A stretch of DNA of 64,000 nucleotides from Paenibacillus psychroresistens (lineage in GTDB: Bacteria; Bacillota; Bacilli; Paenibacillales; NBRC-103111). The stretch covers positions 5,531,501-5,595,500 of the forward strand of contig NZ_CP034235.1 of assembly GCF_009728935.1 (NCBI RefSeq), written 5' to 3'. This document shows, piece after piece, positions 22,635-57,993 of this stretch. Position 1 is the first letter of the stretch, and each line of letters opens with the position of its first letter. Below the pieces are notes generated by a model, which was given only the letters and a program-made list of their open reading frames with translations, ran no database searches and was not told where the DNA came from. The position numbers and the translations under genes were made by a program.

Positions 22635-23852
22635 TTAGGATAGGGGCTTGCTGAGCCAAGGCCGCAAAAAAAACCAAGCTACTAACGGTGCACTACCAAT
22701 ACCCAGCATTAAAAAGTTAATAACCAACGGCTGCTTGCTCCACGAAACAACACCAATAAAAATAAACGAACCCAGCAAGCGTCCTGCACATAACGAGAGC
22801 TCACGAAGCACGATATATTCCACACGCTTCTCTGCACTCTGCTCATTTGCACCAATTTGATCAAATACAACAGAAGTTATTGGAACAATAAAAAGTGGCA
22901 TAAAAAAGGCCGTTCCGACTCCAAATATCAATAGCGTAGTATAATTTAATTTCCAGAAAAACGGTACTATAACCATAATCATCATCAAGATTCCCAGCAA
23001 CATGCTAGTCTTGCGCCAACGCTGCTTGAGCCACTTTCCAACAATAAAAAATCCAACAAAGCCTACAGCCGAAGAAATAAGTGAAAAGTTGCCTAGCTTC
23101 ATTTCATTCTTGGTGTATATGTAAACCAGTAACCCGATCAGAAATCCAAAAACACCTTCACGTACGCCTTGGGCTGCTAAGCTAATCGATATTTTCCGCC
23201 ATGGATGTCCCTTTTTCAATAAAAGCTTCAAGCCAAACATCCATTCATATTGCTGCTGCACCTTGCGTTTTTTCAGAAAAAAACTAAGTACAACCCCGAT
23301 TAGAAAAATAATCAACGATATCGTAAAAATAAGGCGATACCCTGCCGCATCCTTCATATGTGTAATCCAATAACCTGATAGCCAAGGTGCAATCATGCCC
23401 GCCCCAGAACCAAGCAAGCCCATACATCCGTTAAATTTATCTCTTGTATCCCGTTCAGTTACTTCAAAGTATACAATATTAAAGGCAATCCAGAAAAGCC
23501 CAGAGGCTAACCCCATCACCATACCAAGTAAAAATACATAATGTACCGCGTTTACACCAAGCCAAAGGATCAGCAGATAAAATAAAGCCGAAACAGCTAC
23601 ACCTAATCTTAGAGCATGCATTTTATTATGTTCTTTGACCCATTTGCCAGCAATCCAGAAGGTAATTGCCATAGTCAGCTGATTTGCGATCGCAAACCAA
23701 GCTATTAGCGCAAAATCATTCTTAGCAATCCACAAGTAAATGCTAACGAACGTCCCCGACAGTGCATTGGCAATAGCAAACAACCCATTTACAGAAAGAA
23801 GTAGTATGGATTGCCCAGATAAAGCCTTATTATTCGTTTGTTTTGACTTCAT
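22635..23852 (-). CDS. MFS transporter
   Basis: A 405-residue membrane protein with about 12 hydrophobic segments in the major facilitator arrangement, including an internal basic loop after helix 6 (FFLKKRKVQQQY). It resembles B. subtilis YqgE-like permeases by general appearance; the substrate is unknown. ATG after AAGGGG. It lies directly upstream of cysK on the same strand, which raises but does not prove a link to sulfur compounds or amino-acid export. Confidence 0.8.
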   Translation of the reverse strand: MKSKQTNNKALSGQSILLLSVNGLFAIANALSGTFVSIYLWIAKNDFALIAWFAIANQLTMAITFWIAGKWVKEHNKMHALRLGVAVSALFYLLILWLGVNAVHYVFLLGMVMGLASGLFWIAFNIVYFEVTERDTRDKFNGCMGLLGSGAGMIAPWLSGYWITHMKDAAGYRLIFTISLIIFLIGVVLSFFLKKRKVQQQYEWMFGLKLLLKKGHPWRKISISLAAQGVREGVFGFLIGLLVYIYTKNEMKLGNFSLISSAVGFVGFFIVGKWLKQRWRKTSMLLGILMMIMVIVPFFWKLNYTTLLIFGVGTAFFMPLFIVPITSVVFDQIGANEQSAEKRVEYIVLRELSLCAGRLLGSFIFIGVVSWSKQPLVINFLMLGIGSAPLVAWFFLRPWLSKPLS

Positions 23853-23922: not shown

Positions 23923-24480
23923 TTACTGATTTCCTTTAATTACTTTAATCATAGAATCCCGGTCATCTGGTGATAACATGCTCTCGGTCGAGAAGCAGGA
24001 TGGGCACACATAAAGCTGCAGCTTGAATCCATGAGGTAAAAAGGGTTGACCGAGCGAAACAGGAATCTCCGGGACAAACTTGCTGGAATCTACAGTCTGA
24101 GTGCCAGCTAGGAGCATTAATTCCTGACAACGGAAGCATTCTGGTACTTCAAGCTGAGTATCAAGTACCTGCATAACACCTTCGTGATAAACATCTTTAG
24201 CTTTAATCTCTTCGAGATCGGCTTCATAATCATCTGTGCTGTCATCATCTATATCCTCTTCCAATACACCGACTTGAGCTAACTCCTCTGCGGTTTCTGG
24301 CTCTTCGTCATCTTCATCATCAAAATCAGTTTCATGTTCAATCGCACCACCTAAAGGCAATGAACGATAAGCCTTAAGCTCATTGAAGCAATGCGGACAT
24401 TCTTCCTCAGGTCCAAATTCGGGATCCCATGTAATCTCCATGTGACACCATGGACATATCACTACTTCGTTCTCACTCAT
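23923..24480 (-). CDS. Acidic zinc-ribbon protein of the PspA operon
   Basis: A 185-residue soluble protein with two Cys clusters: CPWCHME...CPHC near the N-terminus (residues 9-32) and CFRC plus CPSC near the C-terminus, suggesting one or two zinc-binding knuckles. Between them lies a very acidic, low-complexity stretch (about 52-88). I do not recognise a named family. It follows the 24-codon gene after 40 bases with its own TGGAGG site, making it the last gene of the pspA-DUF350 operon. B. subtilis ydjG, next to the PspA-like ydjF, is also a zinc-ribbon protein, so the association of a PspA homolog with a zinc-ribbon partner has precedent. Confidence 0.75.
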   Translation of the reverse strand: MSENEVVICPWCHMEITWDPEFGPEEECPHCFNELKAYRSLPLGGAIEHETDFDDEDDEEPETAEELAQVGVLEEDIDDDSTDDYEADLEEIKAKDVYHEGVMQVLDTQLEVPECFRCQELMLLAGTQTVDSSKFVPEIPVSLGQPFLPHGFKLQLYVCPSCFSTESMLSPDDRDSMIKVIKGNQ

Positions 24481-24520
24481 GATTTTCTTGCCTCCATCAA
24501 TCTATCTCTATTAACTTGCC

Positions 24521-24595
24521 TTACCTTAAATAGTACACACCAACAGCTACAAAAACAACCGCTAATGCAAATAACGTGCCCCACAAATACTTCAT
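24521..24595 (-). CDS. 24-residue single-pass membrane peptide
   Basis: A very small gene: MKYLWGT followed by a continuous hydrophobic segment and a final YYLR. The ATG overlaps the TGA of the upstream DUF350 gene (ATGA at 24592-24595), with GGAG ten bases upstream, which strongly suggests translational coupling. The peptide is almost entirely one transmembrane helix with a positively charged end. Small membrane peptides often modulate larger membrane partners; here the obvious partner is the DUF350 protein or PspA. Function is inference; the reading frame and overlap are directly visible. Confidence 0.7.
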   Translation of the reverse strand: MKYLWGTLFALAVVFVAVGVYYLR

Positions 24596-25011
24596 GTTAC
24601 GCTAGCTCCAATTATATAAGACATAGAAACGGATATAATCAAGGTGATTAATCCCACAGCACGATTATCTTTTTTAATTTCCTCATCCGTCTTAAAGAAC
24701 GGGGTTAAAAAATCAAAGACAAAATAAGCTACCAATAGTAGCCCAAAACCAATGGAGGACCAGATCAACGTATCGCCAAGAGTATCATTATTGAGAATTG
24801 CAAAACGAAAAATATTGCTGATTCCAAAAATTTTCCCCCCTGTTGCCATGGCGGCCGCGACATTGCCTTTCTTTATTTCTTCCCAATCCTTGTACTTGGT
24901 AATCAATCCAAAGATAATTAAAAAAATAATCAAAGCCACTACGGAAACCGAGAAAAAGGCCACCGTCTTTAAATACACGTTCGTCATCCAGCTATCGACC
25001 TCAGCGTTCAT
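24592..25011 (-). CDS. DUF350 (YjfL-like) membrane protein
   Basis: A 139-residue integral membrane protein with four hydrophobic segments, including LIIFLIIFGLITKYKDWEEIKKGN and a C-terminal pair ending SYIIGASVT. The KDWEEIKKGNVAAAMA block between helices is the DUF350 signature. Proteins of this family repeatedly occur next to PspA homologs. I start it at ATG 25011, ten bases after AGGAGG; an upstream ATG at 25062 lies inside a hairpin and has no ribosome binding site. The biochemical role is unknown; it is probably a membrane anchor or partner for PspA in envelope stress. Confidence 0.85.
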   Translation of the reverse strand: MNAEVDSWMTNVYLKTVAFFSVSVVALIIFLIIFGLITKYKDWEEIKKGNVAAAMATGGKIFGISNIFRFAILNNDTLGDTLIWSSIGFGLLLVAYFVFDFLTPFFKTDEEIKKDNRAVGLITLIISVSMSYIIGASVT

Positions 25012-25043
25012 ACTATATCCGCCTCCTGCAATAAAATTGCCGA

Positions 25044-25071
25044 AGAGACTGAAGAAGTTCATTCAGTCTCT
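25044..25071 (-). other. Hairpin between pspA and the DUF350 gene
   Basis: Perfect 10-bp stem AGAGACTGAA/TTCAGTCTCT with an 8-base loop in the short gap between the two genes. No T-run follows, so it is more likely a partial attenuator or an RNA-processing/stability element than a full terminator. It could set different levels of PspA and its membrane partners. Confidence 0.6.
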
Positions 25072-25086
25072 TGTGGGCTTAATATG

Positions 25087-25764
25087 TTATTGTTGTTTTT
25101 TAGCTGCTATTGAAGCTTTCAACGCTGCAAGCTCATCGTCGACAACACTACCGCCGCCTAGCTTATCCAATTCGTCGTCCAAGCTGCGATTGGAGGAGCG
25201 AAGCTCTCCGCTTGCTTGTGCTTCGGCTTCCATTTGAAGCACCTTTTCCGACATCCGATCAAAGCCTTTAGCTGCGTTATCTGTACCGAAGCCTGACATT
25301 GCTTGGTTGATTGTTTTTTGGGCTTTTGCTGATTCTGCTCTAGCAATCAACAAATCTTTCTTATTCTTCATTTTGTTGAATTCGTCTTTCATTTCATTCA
25401 ACTGATTGCGAAGCTGATCTGCGTTTGTTTTGGAAATAGCATGTTGCTTGCTCATCTCATCGAAACGAATTTGGTGCTCTTTCTTATCTTCAAGCGCGCG
25501 GCGAGCCAAATCTTCATTGCCTTGCTCCAATGCTTTGACTGCTTGCTCTTGACGTTTTGTCACCATTTCTTGTGCTTCTTCAACTTGCATCTTGAATTTC
25601 TTCTCGACTGCGATTTGCTTCGCTACAGCTGATTCGGCTTCCATGATGTCCTCTTCCATATCACGCAGGAATTGGTTTAACATTTTCACTGGATCCTCTG
25701 CTTTATCCAATAAATCATTAATTGACGCTGCCGTTAAATCACGTAATCTCTTAAAAATACCCAT
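25087..25764 (-). CDS. PspA/IM30-family envelope-stress protein
   Basis: A 225-residue, almost wholly helical coiled-coil protein of the PspA/IM30 (ESCRT-III-like) family. It opens with an amphipathic segment MGIFKRLRDLTAASINDLL and DPVKMLNQFLRDMEEDI, the characteristic family start, and contains long heptad stretches. These proteins assemble on the inner face of the membrane and repair or stabilise it. First gene of a set with DUF350, a 24-residue membrane peptide and a zinc-ribbon protein. ATG after GAGGAGG. I leave the gene symbol open because several PspA paralogs (PspA, LiaH, YdjF) occur in this group. Confidence 0.9.
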   Translation of the reverse strand: MGIFKRLRDLTAASINDLLDKAEDPVKMLNQFLRDMEEDIMEAESAVAKQIAVEKKFKMQVEEAQEMVTKRQEQAVKALEQGNEDLARRALEDKKEHQIRFDEMSKQHAISKTNADQLRNQLNEMKDEFNKMKNKKDLLIARAESAKAQKTINQAMSGFGTDNAAKGFDRMSEKVLQMEAEAQASGELRSSNRSLDDELDKLGGGSVVDDELAALKASIAAKKQQ

Positions 25765-25855
25765 TTCGTTTTTTCCTCCTCAGATTGGTATAACTTATGA
25801 ATATTGATACGATTCATTATCCCCCAAGGTTTCAATATTTGCAAAAGAAATTTAT

Positions 25856-27577
25856 TTACGCAGTAGCAACACCATGCTTGGTCTTCACATAAACCATAGA
25901 CCAATACGATAATTCAGGTAAAACAAAGCGAATATACCTGCCATTGTAATCATCTCTTGTAACCCAATTGTAATCCAGTGCCTTAGCCTGAATCGAGTTT
26001 CCATCCGGTGTCGCCCAGTAAACCCCTTCGATTTCTTCCAGCATTTCAATAGTAACTTCTATTTTATCAAGATAAGCAGGTGCTTGCTTTTTGCCTTGAT
26101 GCCACACATCATTATCTAAGCCAATCAGGTTAATTGCATGCAAAATCAAGTATCCTGGCTTTTCCTTGACGATCGTCCACACGCTGTTCACATGTTGATT
26201 GGGCGAGAATATAATGTCATCTTTGTGAAATGAAATCTCTGTATTTATCCCGCCTGAGAAGGTCAAAGAGATATCCTCGAGCTGGAAATCATAGAGTAAA
26301 TGACGGTACATCACGATAAAATCATAGTAAAACGTTAAAGTTTGTTTGAATCTATCAGAAACGAATCCATATTTAGGATAATACCCTTCAGTCAACACAT
26401 TCTCCTGTTCCCCTAGCAAGAGATGATACCCGCCGCTTGCGAATATAGTCGCCATAACTAACGTTGCACCAAACTCTGCTTCAGCCAATGGAGCTGCTCG
26501 TTCTGGATGAAAAGCAGGTAAATAAGCAGCAAGCACGACCTGCTTCCCCGATAATTCCCTGGCGCGATCAATCAGCTGTTTAAGATCTCGAAGATAGGTC
26601 ATCGGATCCCAGACTTCGATATATATGATGTCTTGAAGCGCATTTGCCGTTGTATGAACCGGATAATTGCTGACGTTATTAAAAATCAATCCAGCAACCG
26701 GATATCTCGGAGCAATCACCTCACGTGTTCGATTAATAAATGCGGGATACAGCTGCTTGAGCGCAACAACTTCTTTCTTGCCATTAAGCGTACGAATTGC
26801 TTTTTTTGGCATTCCATATTGATCCAAATGAAGACCATCAAAACCTAGCTCCAGTACCTTTAGAAATTCCGCAATAATATGTGGGGTCCAAGCGGAGTCC
26901 GTAGAAATATCCATGATATAGAAAAAGCTGCCTAATGAGTAAGGCACTCCATCATTTCGATATAAAACCTGGTCTGGGAATTTAGCCGCATAATCTGCTA
27001 AGCTTGCATACACTGCGGCATAAGCCATTGAGGCGATTCCGTGCTCGCGTAGGCCTGCAATCTTTTCACGCACGACCTGAAGCGAAATTTCACGTCCCAA
27101 TGGATCCGTAAAATCATCCACCTCTGGTACCAATTGATCATGCCGATACATCCAATCATAAAACTGTACAATATTGATATGATGCTTATTTAGAAACTCA
27201 ACATCTGTGTTATCCGCCGCTTCTCCAGGTTTAAAATCACTGAGAAATCCATATCTAGGCGCCTCGTGCCAATGCTCCGCTATATCAAATGCTGTCTCGG
27301 CTTCCAGCTTTATGTTATCACCGTTGGTAACTTTAACGAATACGCCATATGCACCTGAGCCCGTTGAAATAGTCGGAATCTCTATACCTGTAATCCCAAC
27401 TCGTATTTCTCCTTCACCACTCAAAATTAACTGCTCCAGATCATATAAGCACCATTGGTAACGTGCTATTTCCTCTAGCTTTGAGTGCAAATATAAAACA
27501 ATCTCTTCGTTAGGTTTGTATTGAGCTTTACTCGGAATGAGTTGAATTAAATGTTGCTTGGTCATGGTTTTATCCAT
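25856..27577 (-). CDS. GH66-family glucan enzyme (dextranase or cycloisomaltooligosaccharide glucanotransferase-like), intracellular
   Basis: A 573-residue glycoside hydrolase of family 66. Family blocks visible: NIVQFYDWMYRHDQ (about 136-148), DPLGR, SMAYAAVYA, GFDGLHLDQYG (Asp247/Asp252, of which Asp252 best fits the nucleophile by spacing) and YIEVWDPMTY (Glu321, proposed acid/base; separation about 69, as in characterised members). GH66 enzymes act on alpha-1,6-glucans. There is no signal peptide and none of the carbohydrate-binding modules of secreted relatives, so it should work in the cytoplasm on imported oligosaccharides. It is the last gene after two ABC permeases. Whether it hydrolyses or cyclises cannot be read from the sequence. 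Confidence 0.88.
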   Translation of the reverse strand: MDKTMTKQHLIQLIPSKAQYKPNEEIVLYLHSKLEEIARYQWCLYDLEQLILSGEGEIRVGITGIEIPTISTGSGAYGVFVKVTNGDNIKLEAETAFDIAEHWHEAPRYGFLSDFKPGEAADNTDVEFLNKHHINIVQFYDWMYRHDQLVPEVDDFTDPLGREISLQVVREKIAGLREHGIASMAYAAVYASLADYAAKFPDQVLYRNDGVPYSLGSFFYIMDISTDSAWTPHIIAEFLKVLELGFDGLHLDQYGMPKKAIRTLNGKKEVVALKQLYPAFINRTREVIAPRYPVAGLIFNNVSNYPVHTTANALQDIIYIEVWDPMTYLRDLKQLIDRARELSGKQVVLAAYLPAFHPERAAPLAEAEFGATLVMATIFASGGYHLLLGEQENVLTEGYYPKYGFVSDRFKQTLTFYYDFIVMYRHLLYDFQLEDISLTFSGGINTEISFHKDDIIFSPNQHVNSVWTIVKEKPGYLILHAINLIGLDNDVWHQGKKQAPAYLDKIEVTIEMLEEIEGVYWATPDGNSIQAKALDYNWVTRDDYNGRYIRFVLPELSYWSMVYVKTKHGVATA

Positions 27578-27592
27578 CCTTATCCTAATTTT

Positions 27593-28420
27593 CTATCCTT
27601 TAACACTGCCATCTGACTGATTGGGATTAACAAATTGCTTTTGGAACACTGCGAAAATCACCATGATTGGGATCAATGCTATGATCGACGCAGCGAAGAA
27701 TAACCCATATGAAGTCGCATACTGCCCCCGAAACAATTGAAGCGCAATGGGCAGCGTGCGTAGTGATTCTGTTTTCAACAACGTAAGTGCTACTGTGAAT
27801 TCATCCCATGTACCTGAGAATGACAAAATCGCCCATGTACCTAATGCGGGAAGCGATAAAGGAATATAAATCGAACGAAATATGGTAAAACGTCCGCCAC
27901 CGTCTATAACGATCGATTCCTCAAGCTCTACAGGAATTCTTTCAAAAAAACCACGTATAAAAAATGTCCCACCTACCACACCGGATCCTACGTAAAGTAA
28001 AATTAATCCTGCATGTGTATCAACAAGCCCTAATGCTTTAATGATAGTGAATTGCGGGATAATATTAAGCAGCGACGGGAGAATCATCGTAAAAATAAAC
28101 GCCTTGAACAGCAACTCCTTAAGTGGAAAAGTAAATCGGGCAAAAGCATAAGCTGTTGAGGCTGCTAATGATATGGCTAAGACCACCGTAATTAACGTTA
28201 TAAATATGCTGTTGAAAAAATACTGTTGAAAATGGTTCTTGGACCAGGCGAGGGAATAATTATTGAAGCTTTTTGCATCAAATATCAGCTTATGTGGTGA
28301 AGGGATGCTGTAATTATCCGTCGTAAGCGAAGTGAAAAACATATAAACAAACGGTCCTATAACAACAAAAATTCCCGCAATCAACAGCAAATAGATTAGC
28401 GTATTTTTAATTTTTTTCAT
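27593..28420 (-). CDS. Sugar ABC transporter permease, MalG type
   Basis: A 275-residue inner-membrane protein with six hydrophobic segments and the cytoplasmic EAA-like loop (PVELEESIVIDGGGRFTIF) that contacts the ATPase. It pairs with the MalF-type permease 26 bases upstream and with the binding protein at 29427. No ATPase gene is present, so it likely uses a shared MsmX-type ATPase encoded elsewhere, as is usual for carbohydrate importers in Bacillota. ATG after AGAGGTG. Confidence 0.92.
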   Translation of the reverse strand: MKKIKNTLIYLLLIAGIFVVIGPFVYMFFTSLTTDNYSIPSPHKLIFDAKSFNNYSLAWSKNHFQQYFFNSIFITLITVVLAISLAASTAYAFARFTFPLKELLFKAFIFTMILPSLLNIIPQFTIIKALGLVDTHAGLILLYVGSGVVGGTFFIRGFFERIPVELEESIVIDGGGRFTIFRSIYIPLSLPALGTWAILSFSGTWDEFTVALTLLKTESLRTLPIALQLFRGQYATSYGLFFAASIIALIPIMVIFAVFQKQFVNPNQSDGSVKG

Positions 28421-28446
28421 AACACACCTCTTATCTGTTAAGTAGC

Positions 28447-29343
28447 TTAGAATTCAATCCGCTCTTTGCCGAATTTACGCTGCTGACTGAAGGTCAGGAT
28501 GAAAATAATCACCGCAATAACTACACTTACCGCTGAACCATATCCAAAATGGAAAAACGTAAAGGCATGCTTAAACATGTAGGTATTAACGACCTCTGTA
28601 GTACCCAGCGGCCCCCCGCTAGTGAGAAAATAAACCTGGAGAAATGCCGTAAATGCCCCAATAATTAAATTGATTAGAACGAACGCGGTCATCGGTTTCA
28701 TTAAGGGCAAGGTAATATGAATAAACATTCGTATCCCTTTTGCACCGTCTATTTCGGCTGCCTCGTAGAGTGAACGCGGAATCGACATCAATGCAGCCAA
28801 ATACATTACCATCACCCAGCCGACACCCTTCCAGACACTTAATGTCCAAATGGCTATATTAGCTGTCCAGCTATTTTGCAGCCAAGCAATGGGTTCAGCT
28901 ATTAGATGAAGCACATCTACCAGTAGGTAATTAATAATGCCGTCAGAGCCGTCAGAGAATAAATATTTAAACAAATAGGAAACTACAATCCACGAGGATA
29001 TCGCAGGGATGTAATAAACCAAACGAAAGAATATTTTGCCGCGGATAAACTTCAAATTAATTGCCATGGCTACTATTATTCCAAAAAACCATTGTCCTGG
29101 CACCGTAACCGCTACCATCAAAAATGTATTTCGCAAGGATAAATAGAACTTGGAATCATGCAAAAGCTTGCTATAATTATCTAGTCCAATAAACAGACTT
29201 TCTTTGGGCTGCAAAACCTTGTAATCAAAAAAACTCATATAAATCCCTTTAATCATTGGATAGAACACAAAAACTGATGTACAAATTAATCCTAGAAGTA
29301 AATAGGGAGCAACCTCGATATATTGTTTTATAGCTTTTGGCAT
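28447..29343 (-). CDS. Sugar ABC transporter permease, MalF type
   Basis: A 298-residue inner-membrane protein with six transmembrane segments and the EAA loop (PRSLYEAAEIDGAKGIRMF). It forms the channel together with the MalG-type partner downstream. It is separated from the upstream binding-protein gene by a strong hairpin with T-run, so it is probably expressed at a lower level than the binding protein. ATG after AGAGGTG. Confidence 0.92.
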   Translation of the reverse strand: MPKAIKQYIEVAPYLLLGLICTSVFVFYPMIKGIYMSFFDYKVLQPKESLFIGLDNYSKLLHDSKFYLSLRNTFLMVAVTVPGQWFFGIIVAMAINLKFIRGKIFFRLVYYIPAISSWIVVSYLFKYLFSDGSDGIINYLLVDVLHLIAEPIAWLQNSWTANIAIWTLSVWKGVGWVMVMYLAALMSIPRSLYEAAEIDGAKGIRMFIHITLPLMKPMTAFVLINLIIGAFTAFLQVYFLTSGGPLGTTEVVNTYMFKHAFTFFHFGYGSAVSVVIAVIIFILTFSQQRKFGKERIEF

Positions 29344-29366
29344 TGGGACACCTCTTTCTTTAAAAA

Positions 29367-29399
29367 AACGAGCTCCGTAAGTTGATCTTACGAAGCTCG
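29367..29399 (-). terminator. Attenuating terminator between binding protein and permease genes
   Basis: On the minus strand a 13-bp stem with one mismatch (CGAGCT-CGTAAG with complement, 29369-29399) followed by seven T (29362-29368). It lies inside the operon, between the solute-binding protein stop and the MalF start, a position that commonly lowers permease expression relative to the binding protein. Confidence 0.85.
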
Positions 29400-29426
29400 A
29401 ATTAATACCGTTCCTAGTATGAGCTT

Positions 29427-30803
29427 TTAATTTGTTGTAGCTAATATCGCATCGATTTCTTTTGCTGCTTTATCCAAAGCTTCCTTGGCTGTGCTTTTTT
29501 TACGCAATACACTCTCAAAGCTGGTGCCGATTAGTTCGCTGATTTCATTCCATCTTGGCGTAGGTGTTCTTGCAAAAGCGGTTGCCATTTCGTCTACATA
29601 AGCCTGTAAATAATAAACATCCTTCAATTTTTCTGATTTCGCTGCATTGGTATTGGTTGGTATCGCACCTGTCTTAAGTGTCATCAAGGTTTGAACTTCT
29701 TCCGACAACATGTACTGAGAGAATGTCCATGCTTCATTAGGATGCTTAGCATCTTTAAAAATCACCAGATCCTGGCCGCCTATAATTGAATGGCTTTGAC
29801 CATCTGGTCCTTTTGGGATTGTAGCTGCGATCATAGTGTCCTTCACTGCATCACCTAGGATACTGAAAAACCAAGGTCCATCGGTAATCATCATATAATT
29901 TGCCGCTACACCTTTATCTCCACGTAAACCTTCCCATGTACCAGGTGCTCCACCAAGAATCGGAGGTGCTAATAGCTTATCCGCATTCCATGAAACGATA
30001 GTTTCCAATGCCTTGATGCTTTCAGGGCTGTTGATAAATCCTGTAGCTGTTGCGAATTTATCGTCTGTATATTTTCCACCTAAAGTCCAGAAAAATGCTG
30101 AGATGTCCCACGTATTCGCTCCACCAATTGTAATGCCATAATACTTGCCTTTGGCTTTGAGATTCTTCGCTAAGGTAACAAGCTCATCCATCGTTTTCGG
30201 TGGTTCTGTTGCTCCGGCCAATTTCAATAGCTCTTTATTGTAAATGGCTACTCTCGTATTGGTATCAAGCGGTACGCCGTAATATTTGCCATTGAATAGG
30301 TTAGTATCCATCGGTGCCTTAAAGGAGTTGGCTACAACTTGATCAAAGCCAGGAAAACCTTCGACTGTCTGCAAGGCGCCTTCCTTAGCAAAACGTGAGA
30401 TCCAAGTATTGTCCATTCGCATAAGATCAGGAACGGCGCCGCCCGCTGCTGCAGTAAGTACCTGTGCATCGAGATTTTCTGTTGGCATCCGAATTGCATT
30501 GACTTTAATTGTAGGATTTAATTTCTCAAAAGCAGGAAGCACATCTTCTTTAAGCACCTTTTCTTCGCCTTCACCAAAAGCATGCCAGAAATCAATCGTT
30601 ACATTCTCAAGCGGTTTAGCTGTTGGTGCTGTTGTTTCGGCTGCTGCCGTACTAGGAGCAATTGTTACCTTCTCTGTTGCTTCCGCTACCGGTGCTGCTG
30701 ATGTGCTAGCCGTTGGTTCTGATTTGCTGCATGCCGTTAAGAAAACGCTTGCAACCAAGGATATAATCAAAGTCTTCGCTGCAGTTTTGAATAGTACTTT
30801 CAT
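29427..30803 (-). CDS. Extracellular sugar-binding lipoprotein (ABC importer)
   Basis: A 458-residue family 1 solute-binding lipoprotein: lipobox LTAC with Cys25, a Thr/Ala/Pro-rich linker (about 26-68), then a two-lobe binding domain beginning VTIDFWHAFGEGEE. Segments such as PDLMRMDNTWI and GVPLDTNTRVAIYNKELL are typical of family 1 carbohydrate-binding proteins. It heads the permease-GH66 genes, so it is the likely binding component for the importer. It is paralogous to the 31028-32299 protein. ATG after AAGGGGG. Confidence 0.92.
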   Translation of the reverse strand: MKVLFKTAAKTLIISLVASVFLTACSKSEPTASTSAAPVAEATEKVTIAPSTAAAETTAPTAKPLENVTIDFWHAFGEGEEKVLKEDVLPAFEKLNPTIKVNAIRMPTENLDAQVLTAAAGGAVPDLMRMDNTWISRFAKEGALQTVEGFPGFDQVVANSFKAPMDTNLFNGKYYGVPLDTNTRVAIYNKELLKLAGATEPPKTMDELVTLAKNLKAKGKYYGITIGGANTWDISAFFWTLGGKYTDDKFATATGFINSPESIKALETIVSWNADKLLAPPILGGAPGTWEGLRGDKGVAANYMMITDGPWFFSILGDAVKDTMIAATIPKGPDGQSHSIIGGQDLVIFKDAKHPNEAWTFSQYMLSEEVQTLMTLKTGAIPTNTNAAKSEKLKDVYYLQAYVDEMATAFARTPTPRWNEISELIGTSFESVLRKKSTAKEALDKAAKEIDAILATTN

Positions 30804-35728: not shown

Positions 35729-38095
35729 TTATTTAAGCTCCACTACTGTGACTCCATTACCGCCTTCACCATAGTTGCCTAGACGATAGCTTTTCACATT
35801 GCGATGCTTGCGCATATAATCCTGAATCCCGGATCTCAATACACCTGTACCCTTACCATGAATAATATAGACCTGACTTAAATTGGCTAGAAAAGACTCG
35901 TCCAGAAAACGATCGACTTCAATAATCGAATCGTCCAAATTAGCCCCACGTAAATCGAGCTCTGAACGTGTATGCTCATCTCGAGTCCGTTTCACGCCTG
36001 TCACTACATGCTGAACAGTCTTCTTGGACGCTGTACCACCACCTAAGGTGTCTAGATCAGCTAATGCTACTTTCATTTTCATCATACCTAACTGAACAAC
36101 TGCTTCTGTTCCGCTAACGATCTCAACAATTTGGCCTCTTTGACCGATGCTTGAAACAATCACATCGTCACCTGCTTGAAGCGCCTTTGGTTTCTTCGCT
36201 TGCTGTGTGGAACGATTCTTATCCTTCAGCTTAGGCACGGCTTCATCCAAACGTCGCTTCGCTTCGATAAGCACATGCTCCTTGACTGAGCTGCGTTCTT
36301 CCATTGCCAGCTTGCGCAAATCTGCGATGATTTGGTCCGCTTCGACTCTTGCCTTAGCAACCGCTTGAGCCGCATCTTTCTCTGCTTGCTCCATGAGCTT
36401 GGCGCGCTCTAGTTCAAACTTGACTTGCTCCTGCTCCAGCTTTCTAACCAGCTGTTCACCATCACGACGCAGCTGCTCAGCGATATGTCGTTCCGACTCT
36501 GCTACAAGCCTGTTCTCCTCCAGCGTCGCAATCATCGTTTCTACACGTTGGTCCTCTTCGTTAACCTGCCCGCGGGCATGATCGATGATCGTCTTGTCGA
36601 GACCGAGTCGCTCCGCAATCGCAAAGGCATTGCTGCGCCCAGGCACTCCAACCAATAAGCGGTAGGTGGGACTTAACGTTTGAATATCAAATTCCATACT
36701 GGCATTAATGATTCCGCTGCGCTCATAAGCGTATGCTTTAAGCTCACTATAATGGGTCGTAGCAATCATCCGGCTTCCCTTGCGATGGATATCTTCTAAT
36801 ATAGAGATCGCCAAAGCTGATCCTTCTGCTGGATCCGTTCCCGCACCGACTTCGTCTAGCAGCACCAAGCTTTTAGGCGTCATGTCGCGTAGGATATTAA
36901 TAATATTAGTCATATGACTGGAAAATGTACTTAAGTTTTGTTCGATACTTTGCTCATCGCCTATATCCGCATAAATCGCGTCGAATACACAAAGCTGACT
37001 TCCTTCCTCAGCAGGCACGAATAAACCAGACATCGCCATCAAACTTAGTAAACCTACCGTTTTCAAAGAAACGGTTTTACCACCTGTATTAGGTCCTGTT
37101 ACGATAATTGTCGAATAGTGATTGCCAATTTCCAAATCAAGCGGGACAACCGATTTATGTGGAATAAGGGGATGTCTGCCTTTACGCAGCTTAAGAAAGC
37201 CACGATCGTTCATAATGGGCAGCACTGCCTTCATCTCACGTGCTATCCCTGCTTTGGCAAACATGAAATCCAGCTCAGCCAGTACTATAAGATTAATTTT
37301 CATCGGTTCTGCTACTTCAGCTACCTGTGCCGTGAGCATTTGCAATATTTTCTCAATTTCTCGTTCTTCTTTGAGCTTGAGCTCGCGTAATTTATTATTA
37401 AGCACGACTACAGATTCAGGCTCGATGAATAAGGTAGCCCCTGATGCGGACTGATCATGAATAATCCCACCAAAATGACCCCGATATTCTTGTTTAACAG
37501 GAATAACATAACGGTCATTGCGCATAGTAAGAATACTATCCTGCAGCATTTTTTGAATGGATGGGGTTCGAATCATTTGATCCAGCTTTTCACGAGCCCG
37601 TGACTCCCCATTACGCAGTTCTTGACGAATCTTACTTAACTCTGAGCTTGCGCTATCCAAAACAGCTGCATTATCGTCAATACAATAACGAATAGCTTCT
37701 TCAACTGCCTTAGTTTCGGTCAATTCATTGCCAAGCTTGGCCAATAAGGGAATCGGATGATCCTCATGGACATTAAGAATAAACCGCTGTAATCTGCGGG
37801 CTCCACTCATCGTATTCGCAATATCAAGCAGCTCAGTGGGATTAAGTGTCCCGGCAATTTCTGATCGACGTATGGATGCATGAACATCACGGATTCCACC
37901 AAACGGTGCTGATCCTTTTAACCGAATGACATGTGCGGCCTCATCGGTCGCTTGCAAACGTTGCTTAACTTCCGTAAGCTCTGGACTTGGCTCTAGCTTC
38001 TCAACCCAAGCCTTCCCTAACGAAGTAGCCGCATAGCCAGAAAGTGTATGTAAAATCTTACCGTATTCTAAAGTTTTAATAATCTTAGTATTCAC
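35729..38095 (-). CDS. mutS2: MutS2 endonuclease/ATPase
   Basis: A 788-residue MutS2: MutS-type core with Walker A GPNTGGKTVSLKTVG and Walker B VLLDEVGAGTDPAEG, an ATTHYSELK segment, a long coiled-coil region (about 510-625), a KOW-like segment and a C-terminal Smr domain (about 710-788; LDLRGANLDDSI, IIHGKGTGVLR) with nuclease activity in the family. MutS2 acts in recombination control and, in Bacillus, in rescue of collided ribosomes rather than mismatch repair. The start is GTG, nine bases after GGAGG; an ATG overlapping the site is immediately followed by a stop. Confidence 0.93.
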   Translation of the reverse strand: MNTKIIKTLEYGKILHTLSGYAATSLGKAWVEKLEPSPELTEVKQRLQATDEAAHVIRLKGSAPFGGIRDVHASIRRSEIAGTLNPTELLDIANTMSGARRLQRFILNVHEDHPIPLLAKLGNELTETKAVEEAIRYCIDDNAAVLDSASSELSKIRQELRNGESRAREKLDQMIRTPSIQKMLQDSILTMRNDRYVIPVKQEYRGHFGGIIHDQSASGATLFIEPESVVVLNNKLRELKLKEEREIEKILQMLTAQVAEVAEPMKINLIVLAELDFMFAKAGIAREMKAVLPIMNDRGFLKLRKGRHPLIPHKSVVPLDLEIGNHYSTIIVTGPNTGGKTVSLKTVGLLSLMAMSGLFVPAEEGSQLCVFDAIYADIGDEQSIEQNLSTFSSHMTNIINILRDMTPKSLVLLDEVGAGTDPAEGSALAISILEDIHRKGSRMIATTHYSELKAYAYERSGIINASMEFDIQTLSPTYRLLVGVPGRSNAFAIAERLGLDKTIIDHARGQVNEEDQRVETMIATLEENRLVAESERHIAEQLRRDGEQLVRKLEQEQVKFELERAKLMEQAEKDAAQAVAKARVEADQIIADLRKLAMEERSSVKEHVLIEAKRRLDEAVPKLKDKNRSTQQAKKPKALQAGDDVIVSSIGQRGQIVEIVSGTEAVVQLGMMKMKVALADLDTLGGGTASKKTVQHVVTGVKRTRDEHTRSELDLRGANLDDSIIEVDRFLDESFLANLSQVYIIHGKGTGVLRSGIQDYMRKHRNVKSYRLGNYGEGGNGVTVVELK

Positions 38096-57473: not shown

Positions 57474-57993
57474 AATCTCCACTCCTATCTTTGCCAATGT
57501 AACCACGAAGCTGGATCAAGGCCTTATTAAGCCAGGTTTTAACGGTACCCTCCGGCTTTTCCAGCAGCTTTGAAATTTCAACTAATGTCATGTCTTGATA
57601 ATATTTAAGAATAATAATATGACGGTATCGAGGAGAAAGCTGGGCAATTGCCCATTCTAATCTGATTTTTTCTTCCAGCGGCGTGGACTCCGTTGTTAAT
57701 GTATTAGGTAAATGCAGCAATGGTATGACTTTTCGACTTCGCTTTTGCTCATCGATACAGTAATGAATCAGAATTCTTATCATCCATGTGTAGAAAAATT
57801 GAGGCTCCTTGAGCTTTCCTAGCTTCTCATAGGCACGGCAAGTCGCTTCCTGCAAGGCTTCCAGCGCCTCAGCCTCATTCCTTAAATAAGCAAATGCTAT
57901 TCTATAGAATCGTTCCTTCTCAGCGCTAACCAGCAGGAAGAAAGCATCATCATCGCCATGTTTCGCCCTTATTACAAGCTCGTCTGTTGTCAT
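57466..57993 (-). CDS. ECF RNA polymerase sigma factor
   Basis: A 175-residue sigma-70 family factor with region 2 (FLLVSAEKERFYRIAFAYLRNEAEALEALQEATCRAYEKL) and region 4 (LSPRYRHIIILKYYQDMTLVEISKLLEKPEGTVKTWL). Belongs to the ECF group often paired with DUF4179 anti-sigmas (SigV/SigX-like in Bacillus). The partner overlaps its end. Its own promoter probably lies at 58000-58150; I could not define it. ATG after GAGAGGTGG. Confidence 0.9.
   Translation of the reverse strand: MTTDELVIRAKHGDDDAFFLLVSAEKERFYRIAFAYLRNEAEALEALQEATCRAYEKLGKLKEPQFFYTWMIRILIHYCIDEQKRSRKVIPLLHLPNTLTTESTPLEEKIRLEWAIAQLSPRYRHIIILKYYQDMTLVEISKLLEKPEGTVKTWLNKALIQLRGYIGKDRSGDYA

Follow-up and report, generated by a model that had tools for sequence, protein, structure and literature searches.

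A small membrane peptide gene conserved behind mutS2-linked DUF350 genes of Bacilli, and its place in a PspA locus

The short open reading frame that separates the genes for a DUF350 membrane protein and a zinc-ribbon protein (ZnR) in Paenibacillus psychroresistens is, judging from its sequence conservation, a real and conserved gene. We lean towards the view that its product is an accessory subunit of DUF350 proteins of the YshE type, that ZnR was added to the pair within the order to which the organism belongs, and that the set was later placed under envelope-stress control together with PspA. The window in which the locus was analysed is a stretch of 64,000 nucleotides, and positions are numbered from its first letter.

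The pspA locus and its promoter

The four open reading frames named in the original prediction were all found where it had put them, on the minus strand between 25764 and 23923, in the order pspA, DUF350, 24-codon frame and double zinc-ribbon protein ZnR. The first of them (25087–25764) encodes a protein of 225 amino acids that belongs to the PspA/IM30 family, matching PF04012 (PspA_IM30, E=4.3e-55) over residues 2–217 with 187 bits against a cut-off of 33.9; it does not reach the NCBIfam equivalog cut-offs for PspA and LiaH, which are stricter. The second (24592–25011, 139 amino acids) encodes a member of the DUF350/YjfL family (PF03994, E=1.2e-35, 122.9 bits against a gathering score of 26). 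A structural model (pLDDT 84) shows this protein as four long helices. Its two halves repeat conserved GN and DN motifs, and no relative was found among solved structures.

ZnR (23923–24480) is an acidic protein of 185 amino acids with two zinc-ribbon halves, which carry four CxxC pairs (C9/C12/C28/C31 and C115/C118/C159/C162) and are joined by an acidic linker. Its pI is 4.05, residues 46–95 comprise 25 D/E and 2 K/R, and all eight cysteines are invariant in 43 homologues. In the model (pLDDT 82) a zinc-ribbon part stands at each end, and there is a long helix as well as a disordered stretch of linker at residues 44–62. Against the double zinc ribbon family DZR (PF12773) the protein reached 14.2 bits, short of the cut-off of 27.3, comparison with solved structures gave no more than weak resemblances to zinc ribbons, the best at E=0.025, and a fold search with the DUF350 and ZnR models gave no match at E≤0.001.

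Directly 3' of ZnR, on the same strand, is a gene for an MFS transporter (22635–23852), and in 68 of the 82 loci examined a homologue of it follows immediately in the same orientation; at locus L148, where ZnR is absent, the MFS gene comes after DUF350 and the peptide. On the other side, mutS2 (35735–38089, minus strand, contig C1:5567235–5569589; TIGR01069, 962 bits) is found about 10 kb upstream of pspA. The intervening DNA holds a cluster comprising a glycoside hydrolase family 66 gene (dextranase/cyclodextran type) and ABC sugar-transporter genes (25856–30803), and in most relatives mutS2 and pspA are neighbours.

Promoters of the form TGAAAC-N16/17-CGTA are recognised by sigma-W in B. subtilis. 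A candidate ECF promoter of this sigma-W regulon type, TGAAAC-N17-CGTA, lies at 25808–25834 on the minus strand, 70 nt upstream of the pspA start, where it is predicted to be active. The TGAAAC-N16/17-CGTA pattern occurs upstream of pspA in all 98 such loci of the window's family (in one case as CGAAAC), and its strict form in 84 of 85 deduplicated pspA loci, as against 2 of 64 regions upstream of DUF350 genes that have no pspA. The genome encodes a SigW-family sigma factor scoring above the curated cut-off; a weaker match to the SigW model within the window (57505–57978, minus strand, 72 bits) is probably another ECF sigma factor.

A hairpin, AAGAGACTGAA-loop-TTCAGTCTCTT with the stem AGAGACTGA, is located directly 3' of the pspA stop codon (25043–25072, minus strand), and has no strong T-run. 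Perfect stems of at least 8 bp were present in 62 of 85 pspA–DUF350 gaps compared with 4 of 300 mononucleotide shuffles. The B. subtilis operon has a terminator that separates pspA from ydjG and leaves PspA far above its partners in abundance (PMC8581546), and by analogy the hairpin behind pspA may be a partial terminator or processing site that lowers the expression of the downstream genes. PspA of Paenibacillus pabuli increases under tellurite by log2 4.2 (PMC8453073), a response that may not come from this locus.

The 24-codon gene and its helix face

The peptide gene (24521–24595, minus strand) encodes MKYLWGTLFALAVVFVAVGVYYLR. DNA around 104 DUF350 loci in the window's family, where DUF350 was matched in every one of 104 genomes searched, was inspected for similar frames. 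A peptide was identified downstream of DUF350 in 97 of these loci by pattern and in one more as a diverged copy (L101), giving 98 of 104. The peptides are 24–27 residues long with the consensus MKYLWGxLxxLAxVFxxxGVYY, the usual length being 27 and the window's copy shortened to 24. Among the six loci that lack it, two (L106 and L107) hold a second copy of DUF350 at another genomic site, L064 is also without ZnR, and L102–L104, from a single genus, have at most decayed remnants. Interruption of the frame in relatives that keep the operon, which the original prediction had named as grounds for giving up the gene, was seen in that one genus and is not general. At L106 and L107 the DUF350 gene is followed by one for a membrane protein that by eye resembles the membrane-fused spermidine-synthase type of PMC11237479.

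Variation in the gene is concentrated at third codon positions, with mean entropies of 0.83, 0.37 and 1.45 at positions 1, 2 and 3. The NG86 dN/dS was approximately 0.20 (508 unsaturated pairs of 1500), which indicates that the peptide is under purifying selection, and Y3, L8 and G19 are invariant across 109 distinct peptides. The proposal that the frame is a gene for a single hydrophobic helix is borne out by this conservation. One of the arguments originally offered for it, an ATGA overlap with the DUF350 stop codon, had to be discarded, since the −4 overlap was seen in just 9 of 97 family loci and is incidental; the gap between DUF350 and peptide ranges from −4 to +159 nt and is most often 29 nt.

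No NCBIfam family matched the peptide at E≤1, and neither the peptide nor ZnR scored above the cut-off of any Pfam or NCBIfam family. The comparison with FixQ/CcoQ (PF05545) gave 13.7 bits (E=0.06), below the gathering score of 29, and a limited literature search found no description of the peptide. An apparent 343-residue fusion at L166 was rejected as a chance open frame that runs into the peptide frame, as congeners carry the peptide alone.

The mean hydropathy of residues 4–22 is 2.0. When residues 5–23 of the 109 distinct peptides are ranked by conservation, the top six positions (5, 8, 12, 15, 19 and 22) follow one another at exact 3-4 intervals (p=1.1e-4 against a random choice of six positions, in a heptad test chosen after the pattern had been seen). 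A Fourier test along the full length of the peptide gave weak periodicity at 100 degrees (p=0.10). In homologues from other Bacilli, L4, L8, F15 and G19 are mostly retained, position 12 is mostly small and position 22 mostly aromatic, which supports the helix-face pattern, bearing in mind that the search patterns for some of these homologues already demanded part of it.

Distribution and gene order

Beyond the window's family, a second family of the order has the peptide in another 23 of 26 loci. A peptide model matched 344 of 392 genomes and 45 of 49 genera of the order, counted at E≤0.1, a threshold at which some weak matches may be chance. In the rest of the class Bacilli a homologue was present behind DUF350 in 51 of 65 mutS2–DUF350 loci, as opposed to none of nine DUF350 genes without an adjoining mutS2 (Fisher p=7e-6). 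A model trained solely on sequences from the window's order still recovered the peptide in 45 of the 65, at a threshold passed by 1% of 1480 shuffled regions (top shuffle 8.1 bits). ZnR, on the other hand, is restricted to the order: it was present in all 17 order members of a class-wide sample, and the other 183 genomes of that sample yielded three weak partial matches.

After deduplication, 73 loci have the order mutS2–pspA–DUF350–peptide–ZnR, and 60 have mutS2–DUF350–peptide–ZnR without pspA, the arrangement in most other families of the order. DUF350 of the YshE type, that is, encoded behind mutS2, is accordingly found in relatives with pspA between the two genes (73 loci) or without it (60 loci). 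Six loci, the window among them, have pspA–DUF350–peptide–ZnR, and a few partial forms exist. The peptide occurs without a YshE-type DUF350 in seven loci, four with mutS2–peptide–ZnR and three with peptide–ZnR; at L194 most of DUF350 has been deleted and peptide and ZnR are intact. With a single exception, the DUF350-poor genomes tested encode a further DUF350 protein at another site. DUF350 without the peptide was seen in the remaining 14 of the 65 loci from other Bacilli, in genus g15, at L239 and L244, where DUF350 and ZnR are both retained, and at three further loci of the order. There is no strict linkage between any two genes of the set.

Elsewhere in the class the arrangement is mutS2–DUF350–peptide with ZnR absent, and nearly all loci are without pspA. 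On the simplest reading, in which the direction of change is taken from the distribution, mutS2–DUF350–peptide is old, ZnR was added in the order, and pspA came later between mutS2 and DUF350. We had at first favoured peptide and ZnR as the primordial pair, and dropped this because other Bacilli have the peptide without ZnR. What stands of the predicted four-gene unit is a conserved set of peptide, DUF350 and ZnR that in the window's family lies behind pspA; its products may, as the prediction proposed, assemble in the membrane as a complex.

Separate pspA–DUF350 pairs, with neither peptide nor ZnR, were observed at L153, L320 and L326 (genomes G121 and G110). The same genomes also hold a second DUF350, which in G121 adjoins mutS2. 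At L345 (G411) a pspA–DUF350 pair is followed by a gene for what by eye is a DUF4178-like protein, as in a context described in PMC11237479.

The partner of the peptide and comparison with known systems

We favour the peptide as a DUF350 subunit because mutS2-linked DUF350 is its most general neighbour. Within the order its partner might instead be ZnR, which it would tether to the membrane, the two acting independently of DUF350 and PspA. Such a pairing would fit with the presence of ZnR at 133 of 134 fetched peptide loci, the median peptide–ZnR gap of 24 nt, the absence of the peptide from six of seven ZnR-less loci, and the seven loci that retain peptide and ZnR without a YshE-type DUF350, although this last count is biased, some DUF350-less loci having come from the peptide search. 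We nonetheless consider it unlikely, given that other Bacilli carry the peptide behind mutS2–DUF350 with no ZnR, that L148 has DUF350 and peptide without ZnR, and that ZnR is found without the peptide at L102–L104, L239, L244 and three further loci. The original prediction had made the peptide a dedicated part of the PspA system, and it could then be a membrane anchor or sensor like LiaI or PspB. PspA of B. subtilis does depend for its localisation on membrane proteins from the same operon, YdjG and YdjH (PMC8581546), DUF350 adjoins PspA in unrelated operons (PMC11237479; L334, L345, L346), and in the window's family the four genes lie on one strand behind a single sigma-W-type promoter. A primary role with PspA is, however, contradicted by the distribution, as outside the window's family peptide and DUF350 mostly stand behind mutS2 without pspA (the 60 deduplicated order loci and nearly all class-level loci), and no peptide accompanies the pspA–DUF350 pairs that lie away from mutS2 (L153, L334, L376). 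We regard this assignment as improbable.

It is harder still to see the frame as a translational leader or coupler for the ZnR gene whose product has no function. It is short, close upstream of ZnR and in many loci near the DUF350 stop codon, all as a leader would be; yet selection acts on its amino acids, as seen in the low dN/dS and the invariant residues on one helix face, the start codon and the spacing on either side vary freely, and other Bacilli have the peptide with no ZnR downstream, so that a leader is very improbable. Hardly credible is a stand-alone membrane-active peptide, for example the toxin of a toxin–antitoxin pair, which shortness and hydrophobicity would suit and nothing further supports: in nearly every genome of the order the gene is conserved at a single chromosomal position, within an operon-like string of genes, and no sign of an antitoxin gene or of mobility was seen.

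Under the DUF350-subunit reading, the 24-codon frame would be translated into a single-pass membrane microprotein, a companion of mutS2-linked DUF350. Its helix face L4/W5, L8, A12, F15, G19 and Y22 would pack on the DUF350 helices and stabilise or tune DUF350. ZnR, added behind the peptide in the window's order, would probably be a cytosolic partner or regulator. In the window's family, the entry of pspA and a sigma-W-type promoter into the mutS2–DUF350 gap would have brought DUF350, peptide and ZnR into joint expression with PspA under envelope stress. For the more specific proposal, that the family of microproteins of about 25 residues, widespread in the class Bacilli, is a dedicated subunit of mutS2-linked DUF350 and that the module of one lineage, with ZnR already added, joined the sigma-W/PspA regulon, our judgement is evenly balanced.

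KdpF, CydX and AcrZ are single-helix accessory subunits of about 25–50 residues that are encoded beside, or act with, a larger membrane protein. The peptide is like them in being a tiny single hydrophobic helix beside a larger membrane protein, a comparison of working principle in which no sequence relation is claimed. We also take YshE of B. subtilis to be a DUF350 member. In that organism the gene order zapA-yshB-polX-mutSB-yshE forms a transcription unit (PMC7261158, the one paper found in a literature search for yshE), and a membrane-protein gene thus holds the same place behind mutS2; unlike the window's set, mutSB-yshE has no pspA and no ZnR. With B. subtilis pspA-ydjGHI the locus shares a combination of PspA, membrane proteins and zinc-ribbon domains under sigma-W control, here assigned by promoter motif. 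The window's locus is not a pspA-ydjGHI operon, as pspA is followed by genes for DUF350, peptide, ZnR and the MFS transporter: the SPFH protein (YdjI) and the TPM-domain protein (YdjH) are missing, the zinc ribbons belong to a protein that has no membrane helix, and the membrane partners are DUF350 and the peptide.

Neighbourhoods of PspA and DUF350 are already known from other phyla, and in the PspA–YjfL operons of E. coli and other phyla a DUF350 gene likewise adjoins one of the PspA family (PMC11237479, a paper on the phage-shock-protein system and the only one that looked relevant among the DUF350 literature matches listed). Those operons carry CesT/Tir-like, DUF4178, polyamine or ATP-grasp genes, whereas the window has a mutS2-linked type of DUF350 with peptide and ZnR behind it. 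New here are the microprotein family, its link to mutS2–DUF350 across Bacilli, and the capture of the unit by a sigma-W/PspA locus.

A well-conserved peptide gene has thus been missing from both general family libraries searched, Pfam and NCBIfam. The repeated meeting of DUF350 with PspA, once by entry of pspA into the mutS2–yshE unit and also in unrelated operons, independently supports the idea of a membrane problem shared by the two. DUF350 proteins are widespread and unexplained, and a conserved tiny partner gives an experimental handle on them, one that can be used in laboratory strains because the mutSB-yshE unit exists in B. subtilis.
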